From contig SMSL01000002.1 in assembly GCA_007859995.1 (NCBI GenBank), positions 1-64,000 of the forward strand: a stretch of DNA of 64,000 bases, given 5' to 3'. Source of the DNA: Candidatus Brocadiaceae bacterium S225. GTDB lineage: Bacteria > Planctomycetota > Brocadiia > Brocadiales > Scalinduaceae. The notes under the pieces were generated by a model. The model saw nothing but the letters and a program-made list of their open reading frames with translations, was not told the DNA's origin and searched no databases. The position numbers and the translations under genes were made by a program. Below, in pieces: positions 615-44,328 of the stretch; within the stretch, counting starts at the first letter, position 1; each line of letters opens with the position of its first letter.

Positions 615-3600
615 CTAATTGTGACGTTTCTTGTGATGTTTCTTGTGACTTTTATTATCACAATTTTTATGGCTTCTCTTGGAATCTTTCGAGTGGCTTT
701 TCTTGTATTTGCGTTTATGATGACCACTGCCGCTGTCATCATCATCACTACTGCCATCATCACTACTGCCATCATCACTGCTGCCATCATCACTGCTGTC
801 ATCATCACCGAGTTCATCTACCGGGCAAAGCACGCCACCTTTCAAGCTGGCCCCTTCAAGCACGGTGAAGTTTCCAAACACTGAACCAATACCAATTGGT
901 TTTGAACAACTGGTATGGATCCTGGTTTCAACGCCACTACTATCAGTGATGGTGATCTCGGTGCCAAGAGTTTCATTATCAGTGCCTATAAATGAGAACG
1001 CACCAAGATGATCAACATTTTCAGCAAATACTACATCTTCATTCTTCTGCGTCACCAGAATAAAGCCACTAGCGCCACCGTTCTCCAGTTTAAGACTGGT
1101 AACCTTTCCTTCACAACAGTCATCGTCACTGCTACTGCTGTCATCATCAACACCGTCATCAATGATTTCGTCAACCGGGCAGAGCGCGCCGCCTTTCAAG
1201 CTGGCCCCTTCAAGCACGGTGAAGTTTCCAAACATTGAACCGATACCAATTGGTTTTGAACAACTGGTATGGATCCTGGTGTTAAGACAACCATTCACAA
1301 AGATACTGATCTCGGTGCCCAGAGTTTCTTTATCAGTACCGACAAACGAAAATGCACCAAGATGATCAACATTCTCAGCAAATACTACATCACCATTCTT
1401 CTGTTTTACCGTAATAAAACCGGTATCACCACCGTTCTGCAATGTAAGATTGGCAACCTTTCCTTCACAACAGTCTTTGCCGCCATCGCCGTTCTGCGGT
1501 GAGCAGAGAATACCGCCGTTCCGGCTCTCCCCGCCAATGACCTCGAAAGAGCCACTGACAAGACCAGGCCCGATAGGTTTCGAGCAACTTGTATGGATCT
1601 TGGCGTTAAGACGACAACCCAAATAGAGGCTGATCTCGGTATTCTTCAAGTTGCCATCGTTGTCATTCACTATTTCAATATCAAACTGATCACCACTGTT
1701 GAGTGGGGCTCCGCTATCAAAAATCACCTGGCATGGTTTCTTTTGCTTTACCTTAACTACTGCCGGGTTTATTCCGTTATACTGAAGTGTGAGCCTGGTT
1801 ACCTTTCCATCGCAATCACCGCATATCAATTTAAAGCAGAAGTCAGCATTGAGAAAACTCTCTCCTGCTGCCAGATCAACATTGACAGTTGTTGCACAGC
1901 TACCGGGTTCTTTACCGGCAGGGGCTGTTGTCACATCCACCGTAACATCGCAGACGCCAGCTGGTACATCCGTAAACAGGTACGCACCAACATCGTTTGT
2001 AATCTGCATGTCAGTATAAACAGTCCCATCAGGAGCGGTACAAGTCAGGTTTACCGCTACTCCCTCTATACCTGGTTCACCAGGATCCTGTACACCATCG
2101 TCATTGAGGTCACACCAGACGAAATCACCTACTTCACTTAAAATTGTCTTGAAGCAGAAATCTGCGTCCAGGTAACTCTGTCCTGCACCAAGCTCAATAA
2201 TATTCGAGATTGGACAATTAGAGCCTTTTTCTTTACCAACAGGTACAGTTGCCAAATCCACTTCAACAACGCATTCTCCGGGAGGTACGCCTGTGAACAG
2301 GTACTCGCCGTCGGCATCTGTAGTCTGCATATCAGTATAAACAGTCCCATCAGGTTCAGTACAAGTCAGGTTTACTACTACTCCCTCTATACCAGGTTCA
2401 CCAAAGTCTGCCACACCATCATCATTAGTGTCACACCATACCAGATCGCCAATCACACCTGACTTAATCCTGAAGCAGAAGTCTGCATCGAGATAAATCT
2501 GGCCGGGTTGAAGCTGGACACTCACTATTTGCGGACATATACCCGGTTCTTTGTCAGCTGGTGCAGTATCCACCTCCACTGTGACCGTGCAGGAACCAGC
2601 CGGTACGCCGGTAAACAGGTACATTCCATTTGCATCAGTCGTCTGTATGCCTTCAAAAAGTACCGTACCATCTGTGCCCAGGCACTTCAGGACAACGTCC
2701 ACACCCGCGATACCAGGTTCGTCAGGGATCTGCTGTACGCCATCGTTATTAACATCATAGAAGACCGTGTCTCCTATCTCGCCTAGTTCCCTGAAGCAGA
2801 AGTCCACATCGTTGTAAATCTGTCCTGCCGCCAACTCGACATTAACAGTTGTTGGGCAGTTACCGGGTTCTTTATCAAAAGGTGCGGTTGAAACATCCAC
2901 CGTAACATCGCAGCTACCAGCTGGTACATCCGTAAACAGGTACAAACCATTTATTGCTGTAATCTGCGTGTCAATATAAACAACCCCATCAGGGTCAGTA
3001 CAAGTTAGTTCTACCGTCACCCCCGTGATACCAGGCTCACCAACATCCTGCACACCATTGTCATTAAGGTCACAGAAGACCGTGCCGTCAATTTCACCTG
3101 TTTCACTGTCAATTTCCCCAGATGAGTCAGCTGTGGAAATGGCCAGCGCGAGCCATGAATGTCCAGCTGCAGTTCCTATGAGCTCAACCCGGGCGTCATT
3201 ATTAGGGCCGAGGCTGGGAACATCGTTCTGGTCTATATGGTATATTCCACCATCCAGTGAAAGGCCATATAACTCACCATCGATAGTCGACCTGTCCATT
3301 CCATTTATCTTCGGTCTTGGAAGGAATGGTAGCGCACTTGGATCATCGTCTAAAAAACCTATGTGCGTCATATTAGCGTCCGGGGGATATATGTCGGTGT
3401 CAATTGACTGGAAATCCATACTGGGGAAATTGTCGTTTGCCAACCACACGTCTTTTGTTGTATCAGCGGCCATCGTTCGTACTACACCTCCGCCAATCCC
3501 CGGGCTAACTGTCTGGACAGGAGTTGCAGAAATTGGATTACCTATTGGATCAGTAGTATCAAAATTATTAATTTTGTAAATTGTGGGAGTATAGCTGTCG

Positions 3601-3977
3601 AAATCCGTGACCCAAAGTTCAGTTCCATTGAAGTTGAAGTCCGCCGCCTCAATCTCTGTTTTGTCCGGAACGACGATACCCATATTACCTAAAGGCGTTT
3701 CTATTCCGGTTGCAATTTCTATTCTATAGAGATTTCCATTTTGATCTGTTCCATAAAGGTTTTTACCAGCCAGATCAATGGCTAAGCCCTTGAACGGAAC
3801 TGAGAAAGTAAAAGAATCAAATGGTGATGGTTCAATTTGGCCAGTTTCTAAATTGATCAAGCGAATTTCATTTGCATCATTGCTTCCATATCCAACAATA
3901 GTTGTTTGTGCATTCACGGATCTTGTCAATCCTGACAAAGCAACTAACAATCCGGTGATTAATAATAATTTTTTCAT
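615..3977 (-). CDS. large secreted SdrD-B repeat surface protein (putative adhesin)
   Basis: A 1120-residue exported protein. Residues 1-23 form a signal peptide ending at VNAQ. Residues 24-290 resemble a beta-propeller-like sensor/adhesin head. Four SdrD-B/Cna-B-like domains of about 105 residues follow (about 292-715), each with a Ca-binding type loop (D-x-N-x-D-G-x-Q-D then GEPGI) and paired cysteines ending in DFCF. Three related Cys-rich modules come next (about 716-1055; CCEGKV start, IHTSCSKPIG middle). The last 65 residues are an Asp/Ser/Gly run followed by a Lys/His-rich basic tail with no sortase motif or membrane anchor. SdrD-type folds are rigid stalks on cell surfaces. The gene follows the pilus operon but has its own riboswitch/terminator leader and 3' terminator, so it is likely regulated by c-di-GMP. 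How it is retained on the surface is unknown. Confidence 0.85.
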   Translation of the reverse strand: MKKLLLITGLLVALSGLTRSVNAQTTIVGYGSNDANEIRLINLETGQIEPSPFDSFTFSVPFKGLAIDLAGKNLYGTDQNGNLYRIEIATGIETPLGNMGIVVPDKTEIEAADFNFNGTELWVTDFDSYTPTIYKINNFDTTDPIGNPISATPVQTVSPGIGGGVVRTMAADTTKDVWLANDNFPSMDFQSIDTDIYPPDANMTHIGFLDDDPSALPFLPRPKINGMDRSTIDGELYGLSLDGGIYHIDQNDVPSLGPNNDARVELIGTAAGHSWLALAISTADSSGEIDSETGEIDGTVFCDLNDNGVQDVGEPGITGVTVELTCTDPDGVVYIDTQITAINGLYLFTDVPAGSCDVTVDVSTAPFDKEPGNCPTTVNVELAAGQIYNDVDFCFRELGEIGDTVFYDVNNDGVQQIPDEPGIAGVDVVLKCLGTDGTVLFEGIQTTDANGMYLFTGVPAGSCTVTVEVDTAPADKEPGICPQIVSVQLQPGQIYLDADFCFRIKSGVIGDLVWCDTNDDGVADFGEPGIEGVVVNLTCTEPDGTVYTDMQTTDADGEYLFTGVPPGECVVEVDLATVPVGKEKGSNCPISNIIELGAGQSYLDADFCFKTILSEVGDFVWCDLNDDGVQDPGEPGIEGVAVNLTCTAPDGTVYTDMQITNDVGAYLFTDVPAGVCDVTVDVTTAPAGKEPGSCATTVNVDLAAGESFLNADFCFKLICGDCDGKVTRLTLQYNGINPAVVKVKQKKPCQVIFDSGAPLNSGDQFDIEIVNDNDGNLKNTEISLYLGCRLNAKIHTSCSKPIGPGLVSGSFEVIGGESRNGGILCSPQNGDGGKDCCEGKVANLTLQNGGDTGFITVKQKNGDVVFAENVDHLGAFSFVGTDKETLGTEISIFVNGCLNTRIHTSCSKPIGIGSMFGNFTVLEGASLKGGALCPVDEIIDDGVDDDSSSSDDDCCEGKVTSLKLENGGASGFILVTQKNEDVVFAENVDHLGAFSFIGTDNETLGTEITITDSSGVETRIHTSCSKPIGIGSVFGNFTVLEGASLKGGVLCPVDELGDDDSSDDGSSDDGSSDDGSSDDDDSGSGHHKRKYKKSHSKDSKRSHKNCDNKSHKKHHKKRHN
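1830..3104 (-). repeat. four tandem SdrD-B coding repeats
   Basis: Four in-frame copies of about 315 bp inside the surface-protein gene, clearly related at DNA level (for example the shared segment coding for VNLTCT and DGTVYTDMQ). They suggest expansion by duplication and could change copy number by recombination. Confidence 0.8.
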
Positions 3978-4283
3978 TGTTTATCCTTGCTTTAAGTATC
4001 TTCCTGAAAAATAAAGTCTTATTATTCTTTCTGCTATACCTCTATTTATTTATTCATTTTTTTTTATTTTCTCCGATAGATTAGAAAAATATTTACGATT
4101 ATTTTAGTGTATATTTATTTGTAGATGATGGTATTTATCTTATGTGTTCAACTTATCTGATTAATAGTATTTTGTCCGACTTTATTGATGCCTTTTCTTC
4201 CTTGATATTCATAACCATAAACGATTTCAAACCAAACTTTGTTTTCCGGTTACTGAAGATAAAAGTCTCATACTTTCCCTTCA

Positions 4284-4326
4284 GAAAAAAAGACCCGGAT
4301 CAGAAAAATATTTCCGACATGGGCCT
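4284..4326 (-). terminator. riboswitch-linked intrinsic terminator
   Basis: On the minus strand AGGCCC pairs with GGGTCT and, inside it, TCGGAAA pairs with TTTCTGA. A run of seven T follows. It sits between the aptamer at 4368-4449 and the surface-protein start. The 5' arm (GAAGGCCCAT) is also complementary, with one G-U pair, to ATGGGTCTTC inside the aptamer, which gives a plausible antiterminator. Confidence 0.8.
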
Positions 4327-4367
4327 TCTTATGCCTTCTATTAATGCACCAGGTAAGCTACAATCGG

Positions 4368-4449
4368 TTAAGACTGGTAACCTGGCATTCTTTCTATGGA
4401 AGACCCATGGCTTTGCGTCCCAACTTCACAGTTGGTTTGCCTTTTTCAG
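4368..4449 (-). promoter_or_regulatory. c-di-GMP-I (GEMM-I) riboswitch aptamer
   Basis: Read on the minus strand, it has the GEMM-I signature in order: GGCAAACC, a 6-bp hairpin CCAACT/AGTTGG closed by a GUGA (GNRA) tetraloop, GGGACGCAAAGCC, a second hairpin region containing GGGTCTTC, and CAGGTTACC. The AAGG before CAAACC fits the A/G positions that contact c-di-GMP in known aptamers. It lies in the leader of the surface-protein gene, just ahead of an intrinsic terminator. Identification rests on consensus recall, not on a covariance search. Confidence 0.87.
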
Positions 4450-4528
4450 AAATAAGAAAGTTCAGCTATAACACTTATCAGATACGAAATGATAAGCTAT
4501 ATTTTTTTGTTAATCTGCCTTGTTTAAA

Positions 4529-12822: not shown

Positions 12823-13213
12823 TAGTCACCTCTTTTTCTGAACTATCAAGATATTTTTCAACCGTATCTATGAGCATGTTCAAGTCGTAAGGCTTTGCTA
12901 TGTACTCATTCCCACCGCATGCAAGGCCCAATTCCCTGTCTGTATCCTGAATTTTTGAACTTACAAAAATAACAGGAATATGTTTAAACCTGGCATCAAA
13001 CTTAATCAGTCTGCAGAAATGATAGCCGTCCATTTTTGGCATCATAACGTCCAGTATAATGAGTTGCGGTTGCTTGCCGTTTACCATTGTCAATGCGTCT
13101 TTTCCATTTGTTGCCATAGCGACTTTGTGGCCTTTTGCCTCCAGGGCAAACTTTAATGTTTCGGCGCTATAAAGGTCATCTTCTACCAATAGTAATTGTT
13201 TATTCTCTTTCAT
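12809..13213 (-). CDS. single-domain response regulator
   Basis: A 134-residue stand-alone receiver domain. Visible residues: acidic pair Glu11/Asp12/Asp13 (LLLVEDD), phosphoacceptor Asp55 (IILDVMMPKMDG), Ser85-Ser86 at the Thr/Ser switch site, and Lys107 (AKPYD). It has no output domain, so it probably works by protein contact, like PilG/PilH or CheY. It is translationally coupled to the upstream kinase (ATGA overlap) and overlaps pilC by 14 nt, so the two form a dedicated two-component pair of the pilus operon. Confidence 0.92.
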   Translation of the reverse strand: MKENKQLLLVEDDLYSAETLKFALEAKGHKVAMATNGKDALTMVNGKQPQLIILDVMMPKMDGYHFCRLIKFDARFKHIPVIFVSSKIQDTDRELGLACGGNEYIAKPYDLNMLIDTVEKYLDSSEKEVTNVCV

Positions 13214-14967
13214 TTATATAAAGGCAGGGTAAAAACAAAGTTACTGCCATCTCTCTCTTTACTTTCTACCCATATCCTTCCTCCCTGTGCTTCTACAATA
13301 TCTTTACAAATGCTTAATCCCAGCCCTATGCCATAGTGTTTTTTTGTTGCGGCATTCTCTACCTGATAGAATTTTTCAAATATCTTAACCTGCTCCTCAA
13401 GGAATATGCCTGGCCCATTATCCTTAACGCTGATTTCTACCTCACCTCCCGTAGATTTAGCGCTTACTGATATTTCTCCGCCATCATGGATAAACTTAAA
13501 AGCATTGTCTAGAAGGTTTAATAACACCTGTCTTATCCTGTTTGTATCTGCAAGGACCGGAGGAGTATTTCCATTATTATTGACAAAGGAGATTTTTTTT
13601 TCATCAGCTTTGAACCATTGGCTTTCCATTGCACTCTTTATAACTTTACTGAGATCCACCTTCTCACGCTTTAATGGTACTTTTCGTATTTCTGACATGG
13701 CTATATCCATAAGTGTAGTACTCAGGTTTGATAGATATTCAATACCGTCGTTTATTATATGCAAGAACTTCTTCTGGGAGTCAGTGTTTGGTCCTGGTAT
13801 TTCCTGGAGTAAGAGATTTATTGAATTTTTCATAGATGTTATAGGTGACAGCAATTCGTGGGACGCTACAGTTATGAATTCTGACTTGATCTGTTGAAAC
13901 TCTTTATCTCTTGTAATATCTTTGAACACGACCAGGCAGCCTCTCTTCTTCTTATGGTTAAACTCCCCATTTATTTCGGTGCAGTCTACCCTTATTACCC
14001 TGGTTTCCGGTGTCTGAATGGTTATCTCTTGAGAAGTAAGCGTGTCCGCCTCTCCTTTCAACCATGCTGGTATATCCTTCAGCCCTGTTCTATTCAACAA
14101 TGCTATCGTATTTTGCTTATCAATCGCTTTGTTGATATTCCAGTCCAGCATCCATTTGACGGCAGGATTAACTACTACTGAGTCGTCGTCTTGAGTGATT
14201 ATTATCACCCCTTCAGATAGATTTTCCACGGCAAGGTTAAGCATTTTCAGGTTTTCAGTGAATCTGACCTCCTGAGTAACATCCTTGTTACTGTTAATCA
14301 TAGAGATCGCATTCGACGCAAAGATGGCAAAGGATTTGAGTAACCATTCATCATGTGGCGTAAACCGGCCTTTTCCTTTTTTATTTACAACCTGAAGTGC
14401 TCCAATCACCTTATTATCTTTTTGTTTTACCGGAATGCACAAGACTGTCTCTGTTTTGTATTCCAGCATATTATCAATTTGAGGATCAAACAGAGGGCTT
14501 TGGTAAGCATCTTCAAGGTTGATAGATTCTGACGCCTTTGATACATAGCCGGCTAAACCAACGTTACGTGGCAGGCGTATTTCTCTGGTTTCTTCATTGT
14601 GGATAAAAAAACATTTGAATTCATTGGCGTCTTCATCAACCAGGAACAGGTTGCACATATCTGACTCTAATATTCGTTCGGCTTCAGCCATTATAAAATT
14701 GAGCAGGGATGTCTGTTCACTACATTGAAGTATACCAATAGATGCGTTAAAAAGGCGTGCCAGCTTCTGTTCCGTCTTCCGCGTAATGTTGAGAACGCTC
14801 ATAATTAAATCGCTTGTTGTATGGCCTAAGTCGATTAGTATATTTCCCAATGCCTTACCATTTGCCTTCTGTACCTCCAGCGCTTCTTCTATCTGGCATT
14901 CATTTACCATCTTCTTTTCCATTAATAACTGCCCGAACATCTGTCTTTTCTCTTCTTTAATCATCAT
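13210..14967 (-). CDS. histidine kinase with GspE/PilB-type N domain, GAF and PAS
   Basis: A 585-residue soluble kinase. Residues about 8-60 (FGQLLMEKKMVNECQIEEAL, then GKALGNILIDLGH) match the helical N domain of GspE/PilB/MshE assembly ATPases, which in MshE-type proteins can bind c-di-GMP and in GspE binds the platform partner. A GAF domain (about 75-230), a PAS domain (about 235-350), HisKA with FITVASHELLSPITSM (His about 365) and a HATPase with DNAFKF, DNGPGI and GIGLGLSICK motifs follow. There is no membrane segment. It is the first gene of the pilus operon, behind a riboswitch-like leader, and overlaps the response regulator by 4 nt. Confidence 0.9.
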   Translation of the reverse strand: MMIKEEKRQMFGQLLMEKKMVNECQIEEALEVQKANGKALGNILIDLGHTTSDLIMSVLNITRKTEQKLARLFNASIGILQCSEQTSLLNFIMAEAERILESDMCNLFLVDEDANEFKCFFIHNEETREIRLPRNVGLAGYVSKASESINLEDAYQSPLFDPQIDNMLEYKTETVLCIPVKQKDNKVIGALQVVNKKGKGRFTPHDEWLLKSFAIFASNAISMINSNKDVTQEVRFTENLKMLNLAVENLSEGVIIITQDDDSVVVNPAVKWMLDWNINKAIDKQNTIALLNRTGLKDIPAWLKGEADTLTSQEITIQTPETRVIRVDCTEINGEFNHKKKRGCLVVFKDITRDKEFQQIKSEFITVASHELLSPITSMKNSINLLLQEIPGPNTDSQKKFLHIINDGIEYLSNLSTTLMDIAMSEIRKVPLKREKVDLSKVIKSAMESQWFKADEKKISFVNNNGNTPPVLADTNRIRQVLLNLLDNAFKFIHDGGEISVSAKSTGGEVEISVKDNGPGIFLEEQVKIFEKFYQVENAATKKHYGIGLGLSICKDIVEAQGGRIWVESKERDGSNFVFTLPLYK

Positions 14968-15030: not shown

Positions 15031-15074
15031 TAAAAAAGACCCAATACCAGAATATCTATTCTGACTTGGGTCTT
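15031..15074 (-). terminator. riboswitch-linked intrinsic terminator ahead of the pilus operon
   Basis: On the minus strand AGACCCAA pairs perfectly with TTGGGTCT; inside, CAGAATA pairs with TATTCTG. Six or more T follow. It lies 64 bp before the kinase start. Its 5' arm GAAGACCC is an exact complement of GGGTCTTC in the upstream aptamer. Confidence 0.82.
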
Positions 15075-15661
15075 CTTGTGTGCCCGATGCTGAACACTGA
15101 ATATTTAAGTATTCAATCGTACCAAATGACGAACGTAAAACTGCCAGCTCCACCGGGACAATTTAGCTTTGCTATACGCCGCTTGAATGTCTCTATTTAA
15201 CCTGCACTTCAATATGTCCAGTGGGTGCTGTAATATCATTCGAATATTTGGTAACCCGGCTTTCTTTTTATTGAAGACCCCTGGTTTTGCGCCCCAACTT
15301 CACATTTGTTACTAGAGCACTTAATGTTCCAAAACCTTTTAATCCTGAAAATTAATTTTATTATGAATTTAAGTACCAGTGATTAAATATGTTATAAAAG
15401 AAAATGTTATAATTTTTAAAATAGATGTGAGGATGGAATAGTAAAAAACGCGGCAACGGTGTGTAATAATGAAACACACAGGGTTTAAAATGGGAATGCA
15501 TTTATTTTTCAGGTATGTTCCGCGTTATTATCATTTTGATCTAAATTTGCATCTTTACTTCACACCCACACCCTTTAATCGAATACATCAGAAATTTCAA
15601 ATTTCTAAGTCTGATGGAGCATACTCATTTTTACCATACCATATAAGGGTCGTTTATTGTA
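15075..15661. other. leader and spacer upstream of the pilus operon
   Basis: 15075-15240 is the linker between the aptamer and its terminator on the minus strand, and I see no gene in it. 15319-15470 is AT-rich and should hold the promoter, but no hexamer pair is convincing. 15595-15620 has a short inverted repeat (CATCAGA with TCTGATG). The reading frames here are weak. Confidence 0.5.
15241..15318 (-). promoter_or_regulatory. GEMM-I-like (c-di-GMP-I type) riboswitch aptamer, divergent
   Basis: On the minus strand it has a GUGA tetraloop flanked by the AGTTGG arm, then GGGGCGCAAAACC, a second hairpin region with GGGTCTTC, and CGGGTTACC. This is clearly the same layout as the aptamer at 4368-4449. 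The 5' strand is degenerate (AACAAAT where the other copy has CAAACCAACT) and GGGAC is GGGGC, so ligand affinity or specificity may differ. It precedes a strong intrinsic terminator and the kinase-PilC-pilin operon. Confidence 0.65.
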
Positions 15662-42711: not shown

Positions 42712-44328
42712 TCATTTTTTCTCACCAACCTTTCCACGTGCCTGCTCTAAAACCTCTGCCGGCACGGAAAAAAGTTCTTGTTTCTCAATGATATCAAAAA
42801 ACAAAGAAACCAGTGCCGGGTCAAACTGTGTACCGGCCTTATTTGCAAGTTCTACAACCATCTCTTCCGGAGATAGCTTCGCCTTATATAGCCGTCCGGA
42901 TAGCATAGCCGTGATTGCATCAGTCATCGCAAATATTCGAGCGCCAAGTGGGATTTCATTTTCTTTAAGCCCATCGGGATAACCGGTTCCATTAAAGTTT
43001 TCATGGTGATATTGAAGTATCGACTTTTCGTTGGCAAAAAAATCGAACAAGTCGATCAGTTCTGATAACATGTACGGATGGTCTTCAATCTCAATCCTCT
43101 CCTCTTTGTTTAGCACCTTGGTTTTAGCTTTTATAGTTTTTTTCAGCAAAACTTTAAAATTATCATGAAAATTTGCTGCACGTCGAAAAGTTTCAATAAT
43201 AGCGGGAGGAAGGGCAAGCCTTTCACCAATGAGTGTAATGTATCTCTTTACATCGTGATTATGTTGCTTGTGGTCCTCGCCACCTATGTCACGGGTTAAA
43301 AGCTCTAAAGATCTTATAGATGATTTTTTTGCTTTTTCTAAAATCACTGAAAGGTTTTCCTTCAGGTATCTTAAATTTTTGTCTTCACTGATTCTATTAT
43401 CCTCAGATATCCAGGGAGGCTTCGTGTAAACAGTAATCCTGTTTCTTCCTTCCGCCTTAGATTGGTAAAGAGCTTTGTCTGCACATGCTATAATCTCTTT
43501 ACCTTCTAATAATTGATGCTGTTTTAGAGATGCAATACCTATACTCACGGTTATCCTTGTTGAATTGAGACCATCTTCATACTTCTTTTTCTTACATGTA
43601 GCAAGAATTTTTTCAGCTACTTTTTGTGCCTCGGCGACACCTGTATTCGGGAGAAGTATCATGAACTCTTCTCCTCCATATCGAATTGGAATATCAGTTA
43701 TCCTTGCGTTTTGCTTTAATCCCGTAGAAAATTCTCGTAACACAAAATCACCAAAGACATGTCCAAAGGTATCGTTTACATCTTTGAAACAATCCAAATC
43801 AAGCAGCAGGCAGGATAAATCGGTTTGGTATCTCAGCGCACGGGCAAACTCCTTTTCAAGGATGTCTACCATGTAGTGACGATTGTACAGACCCGTCAAA
43901 TGATCAATGGTTGCCTGTTTTTCAAAATTGTCACGTACTGACAAAAGCTCTTTATTCAATTCAACAATACGCTTTCCAACCTTCAGGCGGGCTCTTAGTT
44001 CATTATGATTGAATGGTTTGGTAATATAGTCGTCTGCCCCCGCCTCCATTCCCTTGATATAATCATCCTGCCTGCCTTTCGATGTGAGCAGCATGATAAA
44101 CGTATATGGATCTCTTGCCAGTTTTCTGACCTTACGGCATATCTCTAAACCGTCCATACCAGGAATCATCCAATCAAGTATTAGAAGATTCGGTGGGTCT
44201 TCTGACTGAATAATTTTCCAGGCATCGAGACCATTCCCGCACGATACAACTTCAAAATCCATGTCTGCCAAAAACTTTTCCAATCTGCGCCGTGTTATAT
44301 TATCGTCTTCTGCAATTAATATTTTCAT
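42712..44328 (-). CDS. response regulator with GGDEF and HD-GYP-type domains
   Basis: A 538-residue protein. A receiver domain (1-120; Asp8/Asp9, phosphoacceptor Asp52 in LLILDWMIPGMDG, Lys in TKPF) is followed by a GGDEF diguanylate cyclase domain (about 135-305) with an intact GGEEF active site and the DHLTGLYNR start motif. An HD-GYP-like domain follows (about 340-520) with FHDN and HHENFNGTGYPDGL (HHExxxGxGYP). It may both make and break c-di-GMP, under control of phosphorylation. The gene is coupled by a 4-nt overlap to an Hpt protein. Some HD-domain metal ligands look altered, so the hydrolase half may be weak. Confidence 0.92.
   Translation of the reverse strand: MKILIAEDDNITRRRLEKFLADMDFEVVSCGNGLDAWKIIQSEDPPNLLILDWMIPGMDGLEICRKVRKLARDPYTFIMLLTSKGRQDDYIKGMEAGADDYITKPFNHNELRARLKVGKRIVELNKELLSVRDNFEKQATIDHLTGLYNRHYMVDILEKEFARALRYQTDLSCLLLDLDCFKDVNDTFGHVFGDFVLREFSTGLKQNARITDIPIRYGGEEFMILLPNTGVAEAQKVAEKILATCKKKKYEDGLNSTRITVSIGIASLKQHQLLEGKEIIACADKALYQSKAEGRNRITVYTKPPWISEDNRISEDKNLRYLKENLSVILEKAKKSSIRSLELLTRDIGGEDHKQHNHDVKRYITLIGERLALPPAIIETFRRAANFHDNFKVLLKKTIKAKTKVLNKEERIEIEDHPYMLSELIDLFDFFANEKSILQYHHENFNGTGYPDGLKENEIPLGARIFAMTDAITAMLSGRLYKAKLSPEEMVVELANKAGTQFDPALVSLFFDIIEKQELFSVPAEVLEQARGKVGEKK

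Follow-up and report, generated by a model that had tools for sequence, protein, structure and literature searches.

The closest described counterparts of the element reported here come from Vibrio cholerae, Bacillus thuringiensis and Clostridioides difficile. The c-di-GMP-I switches of V. cholerae act without termination (PMC6366702), and the ligand contacts of its Vc2 aptamer are G20, A47 and C92 (PMC4744006). Bc2 of B. thuringiensis is an ON c-di-GMP-I switch located before the collagen adhesion gene cap (PMC4933901). C. difficile carries class I OFF riboswitches, such as Cd1 before flgB, and turns its pili on via a class II riboswitch (PMC6366702). Both the presence of c-di-GMP-I aptamers before adhesin genes and the existence of OFF switches with terminators are, in consequence, already known. 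For anammox bacteria, whose growth takes the form of granules and biofilms, we found no c-di-GMP riboswitch described in the open-access literature.

Here we describe an element on the minus strand of a 64,000-nucleotide stretch of a Candidatus Brocadiaceae genome (the window), which is probably a c-di-GMP riboswitch that turns off transcription from within the leader of an SdrD-type gene. We give this reading a probability of about 0.66, and we infer the ligand, the direction of control and the SdrD target from the sequence. The element shares with Vc2 and Vc1 (RF01051) its fold, a P2 capped by a GNRA tetraloop (GUGA in the window), the bases G20, A47 and C92 (by alignment to the model), the interhelical C-G pair and a place in the leader of a secreted-protein gene, but it differs from them in being a terminator platform with predicted competition between P3 and the terminator. 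Like Bc2, it joins a c-di-GMP-I aptamer and a terminator ahead of a surface-protein gene, although Bc2 is an ON switch and the window element is predicted to be OFF. The Cd1-type switches of C. difficile combine the same aptamer class with termination and OFF logic, as predicted for the window upon ligand binding, but differ in their targets; moreover, the pili of C. difficile are switched ON whereas the subfamily near Brocadiales pilin genes described below is predicted to be OFF.

Identity and conservation of the aptamer

The host genome (2.96 Mb, 79% complete) contains seven GGDEF domains. Hydrazine synthase alpha is present in 39 of the 61 genomes of the order (Brocadiales, anammox), including most of those of the same genus, and was not found in the host genome at its 79% completeness. 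Two features are needed at this point:

4372-4450, minus strand: c-di-GMP-I aptamer (matches to RF03167 and RF01051, covariation over 14 relatives)
42712-44328, minus strand: REC-GGDEF-HD (HD_5) protein within the window, carrying one of the seven GGDEF domains and by its domain content an enzyme of c-di-GMP turnover

The initial annotation had placed a complete GEMM-I core on the minus strand, and every motif that it named was found where it had been placed. Congruently, the RF01051 c-di-GMP-I covariance model matched 4372-4450 with 67.6 bits in a search of the genome (gathering score 35, E 4.8e-13). The c-di-GMP-I-GGC model, RF03167, also passed its gathering score of 59 in the window search (64.6 bits, E 5.7e-13), and the window element resembles this model in length and in its short P1, which in the window consists of three pairs, CUG/CAG. 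When 14 relatives were compared, 93% of the helix cells were paired, with values of 98.8% for P2, 95.7% for P3 and 66.7% for P1. Both sides had changed at 7 aptamer pairs, compared with 2.6 in shuffles, and the interhelical C-G pair was kept in all 14.

The terminator and the predicted switch

Downstream of the aptamer lie the following features:

4399-4409, minus strand: P3 5' strand CAUGGGUCUUC, the predicted antiterminator strand (11 bp with 4318-4328)
4346-4386, minus strand: anti-aptamer hairpin that takes the P3 3' strand, GCCAGGU with ACCUGGUGC (best fold of the growing transcript)
4285-4330, minus strand: intrinsic terminator with its 5' arm GAAGGCCCAUG at 4318-4328 (folding; conserved in the related genome G051)
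615-3977, minus strand: 1120-aa secreted protein with SdrD_B and DUF7467 (Pfam), the presumed target, with AAGGA, resembling a ribosome-binding site, before its ATG

The terminator had been described as following the aptamer at once. A strong one is present (−22.8 kcal/mol, z −3.6, with none of 200 shuffles as good), although it starts ~42 nt past the aptamer; a simple consensus terminator scan missed it. Its 5' arm and the P3 5' strand form an 11-bp complement of −19.4 kcal/mol, a value equaled by only 2 of 300 shuffled arms. In the best folds of the growing transcript, the 4346-4386 hairpin appears from about 102-110 nt onward, and at 134-158 nt the best fold is an antiterminator in which the hairpin of the P3 3' strand with ACCUGGUGC is nested within the duplex of the P3 5' strand and the terminator arm. 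This fold lies 9-16 kcal/mol below the bare aptamer in a model that omits the ligand and tertiary contacts, and once the terminator is complete the antiterminator is within about 1 kcal/mol of it, in energies with the same omissions.

The mutually exclusive pairings computed for P3 and the terminator arm support the prediction of an OFF-type terminator platform. Without ligand, the P3 3' strand would be captured by the downstream hairpin and the P3 5' strand would pair with the terminator 5' arm; with this antiterminator formed, RNA polymerase would continue into the SdrD gene. When c-di-GMP is bound, P3 would be kept in the aptamer, the terminator arm would be freed and transcription would stop.

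Upstream, about 24 nt from the aptamer, lies a dyad, CTTATCA-N9-TGATAAG (4474-4496, minus strand), which is kept in G051, where its two halves carry matching substitutions (TTATCG..CGATAA). It is perhaps an operator or a leader hairpin.

A predicted OFF-type subfamily across Brocadiales

With a covariance model of the riboswitch subfamily, R1, the members reach much higher scores than do the other c-di-GMP-I elements in the order. For the comparison of terminators, 24 members with a plausible terminator were chosen, and in 21 of them the terminator 5' arm and the P3 5' strand give a duplex of −12 kcal/mol or lower; these members are related by descent and are therefore not independent tests of the design. 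The pairing arms are mostly (G)AAGACCCA, lie about 14 to 240 nt downstream and come from three Brocadiales families, and four ON-type terminator arms taken as controls reached about −1 to −10 kcal/mol against P3. Of the other three, L075 and L157 have no such complement, and that of L155 is borderline (−11.6 kcal/mol, with 71 of 300 shuffles as good). For some other members of the subfamily, such as L019 and L141, no terminator was found.

The downstream ORF picked for L010, L131, L141, L142, L143, L148 and L153 is of prepilin/PilX type, as it is for L095 by cluster annotation. Several of these ORFs start 0.2 to 0.8 kb away, so that their linkage is one of position only. Other downstream ORFs encode kinases, HDOD and TPR proteins, an AAA ATPase about 0.9 kb off, and exported proteins lacking assignment. 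Two copies precede signalling genes, namely a Cache/PAS/GAF/GGDEF set (L093, in G053) and a response regulator (L094, in G057). Some Brocadiales genomes are very rich in c-di-GMP-I matches; in one of 4.1 Mb (G017), RF03167 gives as many as 57 with an E-value no higher than 0.001, and several of these stand in tandem.

A decayed second copy and a kinase remnant

The window holds a second copy of the leader at the head of a kinase/pilus operon, as well as a remnant that resembles the start of the same kinase gene:

15246-15321, minus strand: decayed second aptamer at the head of the kinase/pilus operon (model R1; alignment with the G050 leader)
15032-15077, minus strand: terminator of the decayed copy, AAGAAGACCCAAG...TTGGGTCTTTTTT (sequence; identical stretch in G050)
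13210-14967, minus strand: histidine kinase, first gene of the type IV pilus operon and putative source of the remnant (Pfam GAF, HisKA, HATPase_c)
4150-4278, minus strand: putative remnant of a histidine-kinase gene start (broken short ORFs at 4227-4271 and 4153-4218)

The 15246-15321 copy matches R1 with 42.3 bits (E 3.6e-10). It lacks the GGCAAACC region, since a 17-nt stretch with GGCAAAC is missing when compared with the intact riboswitch leader of G050 (L095), which precedes prepilin genes and with which about 400 nt of the decayed copy's leader align. The terminator and leader of the decayed copy remain intact.

The nearest relative of the 4372-4450 copy is found in G051 (L092), with an identity of 92% in the aptamer, 86% in the terminator and 65% in the linker. 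The terminator of this relative is followed by a 64-aa ORF that has no Pfam match and is 74% identical over 42 aa to the N terminus of the kinase; its counterpart in the window is shortened and broken. The remnant was aligned with this ORF and with the window kinase start (15020-14851). Taken alone, the direct comparison of remnant and kinase is weak (score 54.5, against a maximum of 56 in 1000 shuffles), and the assignment rests on the conserved-leader register. By eye, the N-terminal part of the kinase looks like the beginning of a GspE/PilB-type protein, and behind the G051 riboswitch this kinase-like N terminus stands alone (L092:123-317, minus strand). In the other genomes of the genus that were read, no riboswitch was found at the kinase head, and the kinase there follows an apparent end of a PilB-type gene.

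Given the decayed copy at the operon head and the kinase remnant before SdrD, the intact copy looks like a duplicate of the pilus-operon leader that the SdrD gene has captured. The 64-aa kinase-like ORF of G051 and its broken version in the window likewise suggest that leader and kinase start have been copied together, as one unit, into other locations. We infer that a copy of the pilus/kinase-operon leader, carrying a truncated kinase start with it, was placed ahead of SdrD, while the aptamer at the operon head was partly lost.

The SdrD-type protein as the presumed target

The 615-3977 ORF is the next long ORF on the riboswitch strand, with no other gene between. The initial annotation placed this protein gene after the terminator; its ATG lies about 307 nt past the terminator, and the gap contains the kinase-gene remnant. 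The same annotation called the product a giant surface protein and a secreted stalk protein. At 1120 aa it is large rather than giant, and its signal-peptide-like N terminus, weak DUF4394 match, SdrD_B and DUF7467 domains and lack of a visible sorting signal do not support a stalk. As read from the sequence, the protein has no LPXTG signal and its C terminus is D/S-rich, then K/H-rich. With the cell-wall adhesins of the Sdr/MSCRAMM kind, which carry LPXTG, it has the SdrD_B repeats alone in common.

No close SdrD homologue was detected in 59 related genomes, and the pair of riboswitch and SdrD was kept in no relative examined. One repeat protein was found elsewhere, in Krumholzibacteriota, but its 13.9 kb of sequence holds no riboswitch, and SdrD homologues were discarded as support for the pairing. 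Regarding the proposal that the secreted protein is a direct c-di-GMP output, the riboswitch and its terminator hold, and the position of the SdrD gene makes it likely that they control it. Its position and the intact copy beside a decayed sister point to SdrD as the target.

Two layouts in one genome

Other copies in the host genome are built differently. L002-L005 have the layout of an ON switch, in that the aptamer's own 3' strand doubles as the terminator 5' arm; a PEP-CTERM protein follows L004, and FecR-type proteins follow L005. A divergent c-di-GMP-I copy, L007 (G000:C10:92501-92590, plus strand; 43 bits), has AGTCAAGC replacing GGCAAACC and precedes fibronectin-III proteins. No terminator was seen at L007, which is possibly under translational control.

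Discussion

The explanation that competes most directly with SdrD control is a working c-di-GMP riboswitch that does something else, be it as a gate for read-through from the end of the pilus operon, as a control of the short remnant ORFs alone or as a relic, with SdrD transcribed from a promoter of its own in 3978-4284. The pilus genes do finish just upstream on the same strand, the kinase-gene remnant sits between the terminator and SdrD, and no relative conserves the pair. A promoter-like site at 4098-4125 (minus strand) is weak and overall no better than chance. Against this stand the lack of anything but SdrD as the next long ORF on the strand, and a linker that drifts while the aptamer and terminator stay conserved; we consider such independence unlikely. 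An ON switch, in which c-di-GMP binding would prevent termination, would agree with the layout of L002-L005 and with Bc2 before cap (PMC4933901), but the window terminator does not overlap the aptamer, the ground on which ON logic was set aside, and the competing strand is the P3 5' strand, which the ligand would occupy. This makes an ON switch improbable.

A ligand other than c-di-GMP, such as c-AMP-GMP or another as in variant aptamer classes, is more improbable still. The GGC variant is the best Rfam family by E-value and its gathering score was exceeded; however, its consensus is GGGACGCGAA where the window reads GGGACGCAAA, with a G in the model in place of A47, and its 3' end is cUGCc rather than UUACC. 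From the name and the model consensus, we take the G replacing A47 to be the distinguishing pocket base of c-di-GMP-I-GGC. The pocket of the window aptamer is therefore of the canonical c-di-GMP-I kind, and the GGC variant was rejected as its ligand class. Riboswitches for c-AMP-GMP (GEMM-Ib) have an A, not a G, at position 20, so this class was rejected as well. Both G20 and A47 are canonical contacts of c-di-GMP (PMC4744006). Given this pocket and the seven GGDEF domains that the genome encodes, the element is best read as a c-di-GMP output.

Less ordinary than the riboswitch itself are the platform shared by a whole subfamily near Brocadiales pilin genes, the occurrence of opposite layouts within a single genome and the apparent duplication of a leader. 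A tentative reading, to which we give slightly less than even odds, would unite them: Brocadiales would have an OFF subfamily, largely at pilin genes, in which the GAAGACCCA arm competes with P3, and an ON subfamily, in which the P3 3' strand itself acts as terminator arm and which in the host genome would serve PEP-CTERM and FecR-type exported proteins. The logic of each would be fixed and opposite, and in the window a surface-protein gene would have captured a duplicate of the OFF leader of the pilus operon, with the original falling into decay.

The initial annotation gave the switch no direction. The OFF state predicted here at high c-di-GMP implies that the SdrD-type protein would hardly serve as a plain biofilm adhesin made when c-di-GMP is high. 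The conserved platform yields a testable list of genes predicted to be repressed by c-di-GMP, including a secreted repeat protein adjoining pilus genes, and the two copies in one window illustrate how a ready-made switch may be acquired through leader duplication. If the two-subfamily reading is true, one ligand would flip cells from piliated to matrix-making, the opposite of pilus control in C. difficile.
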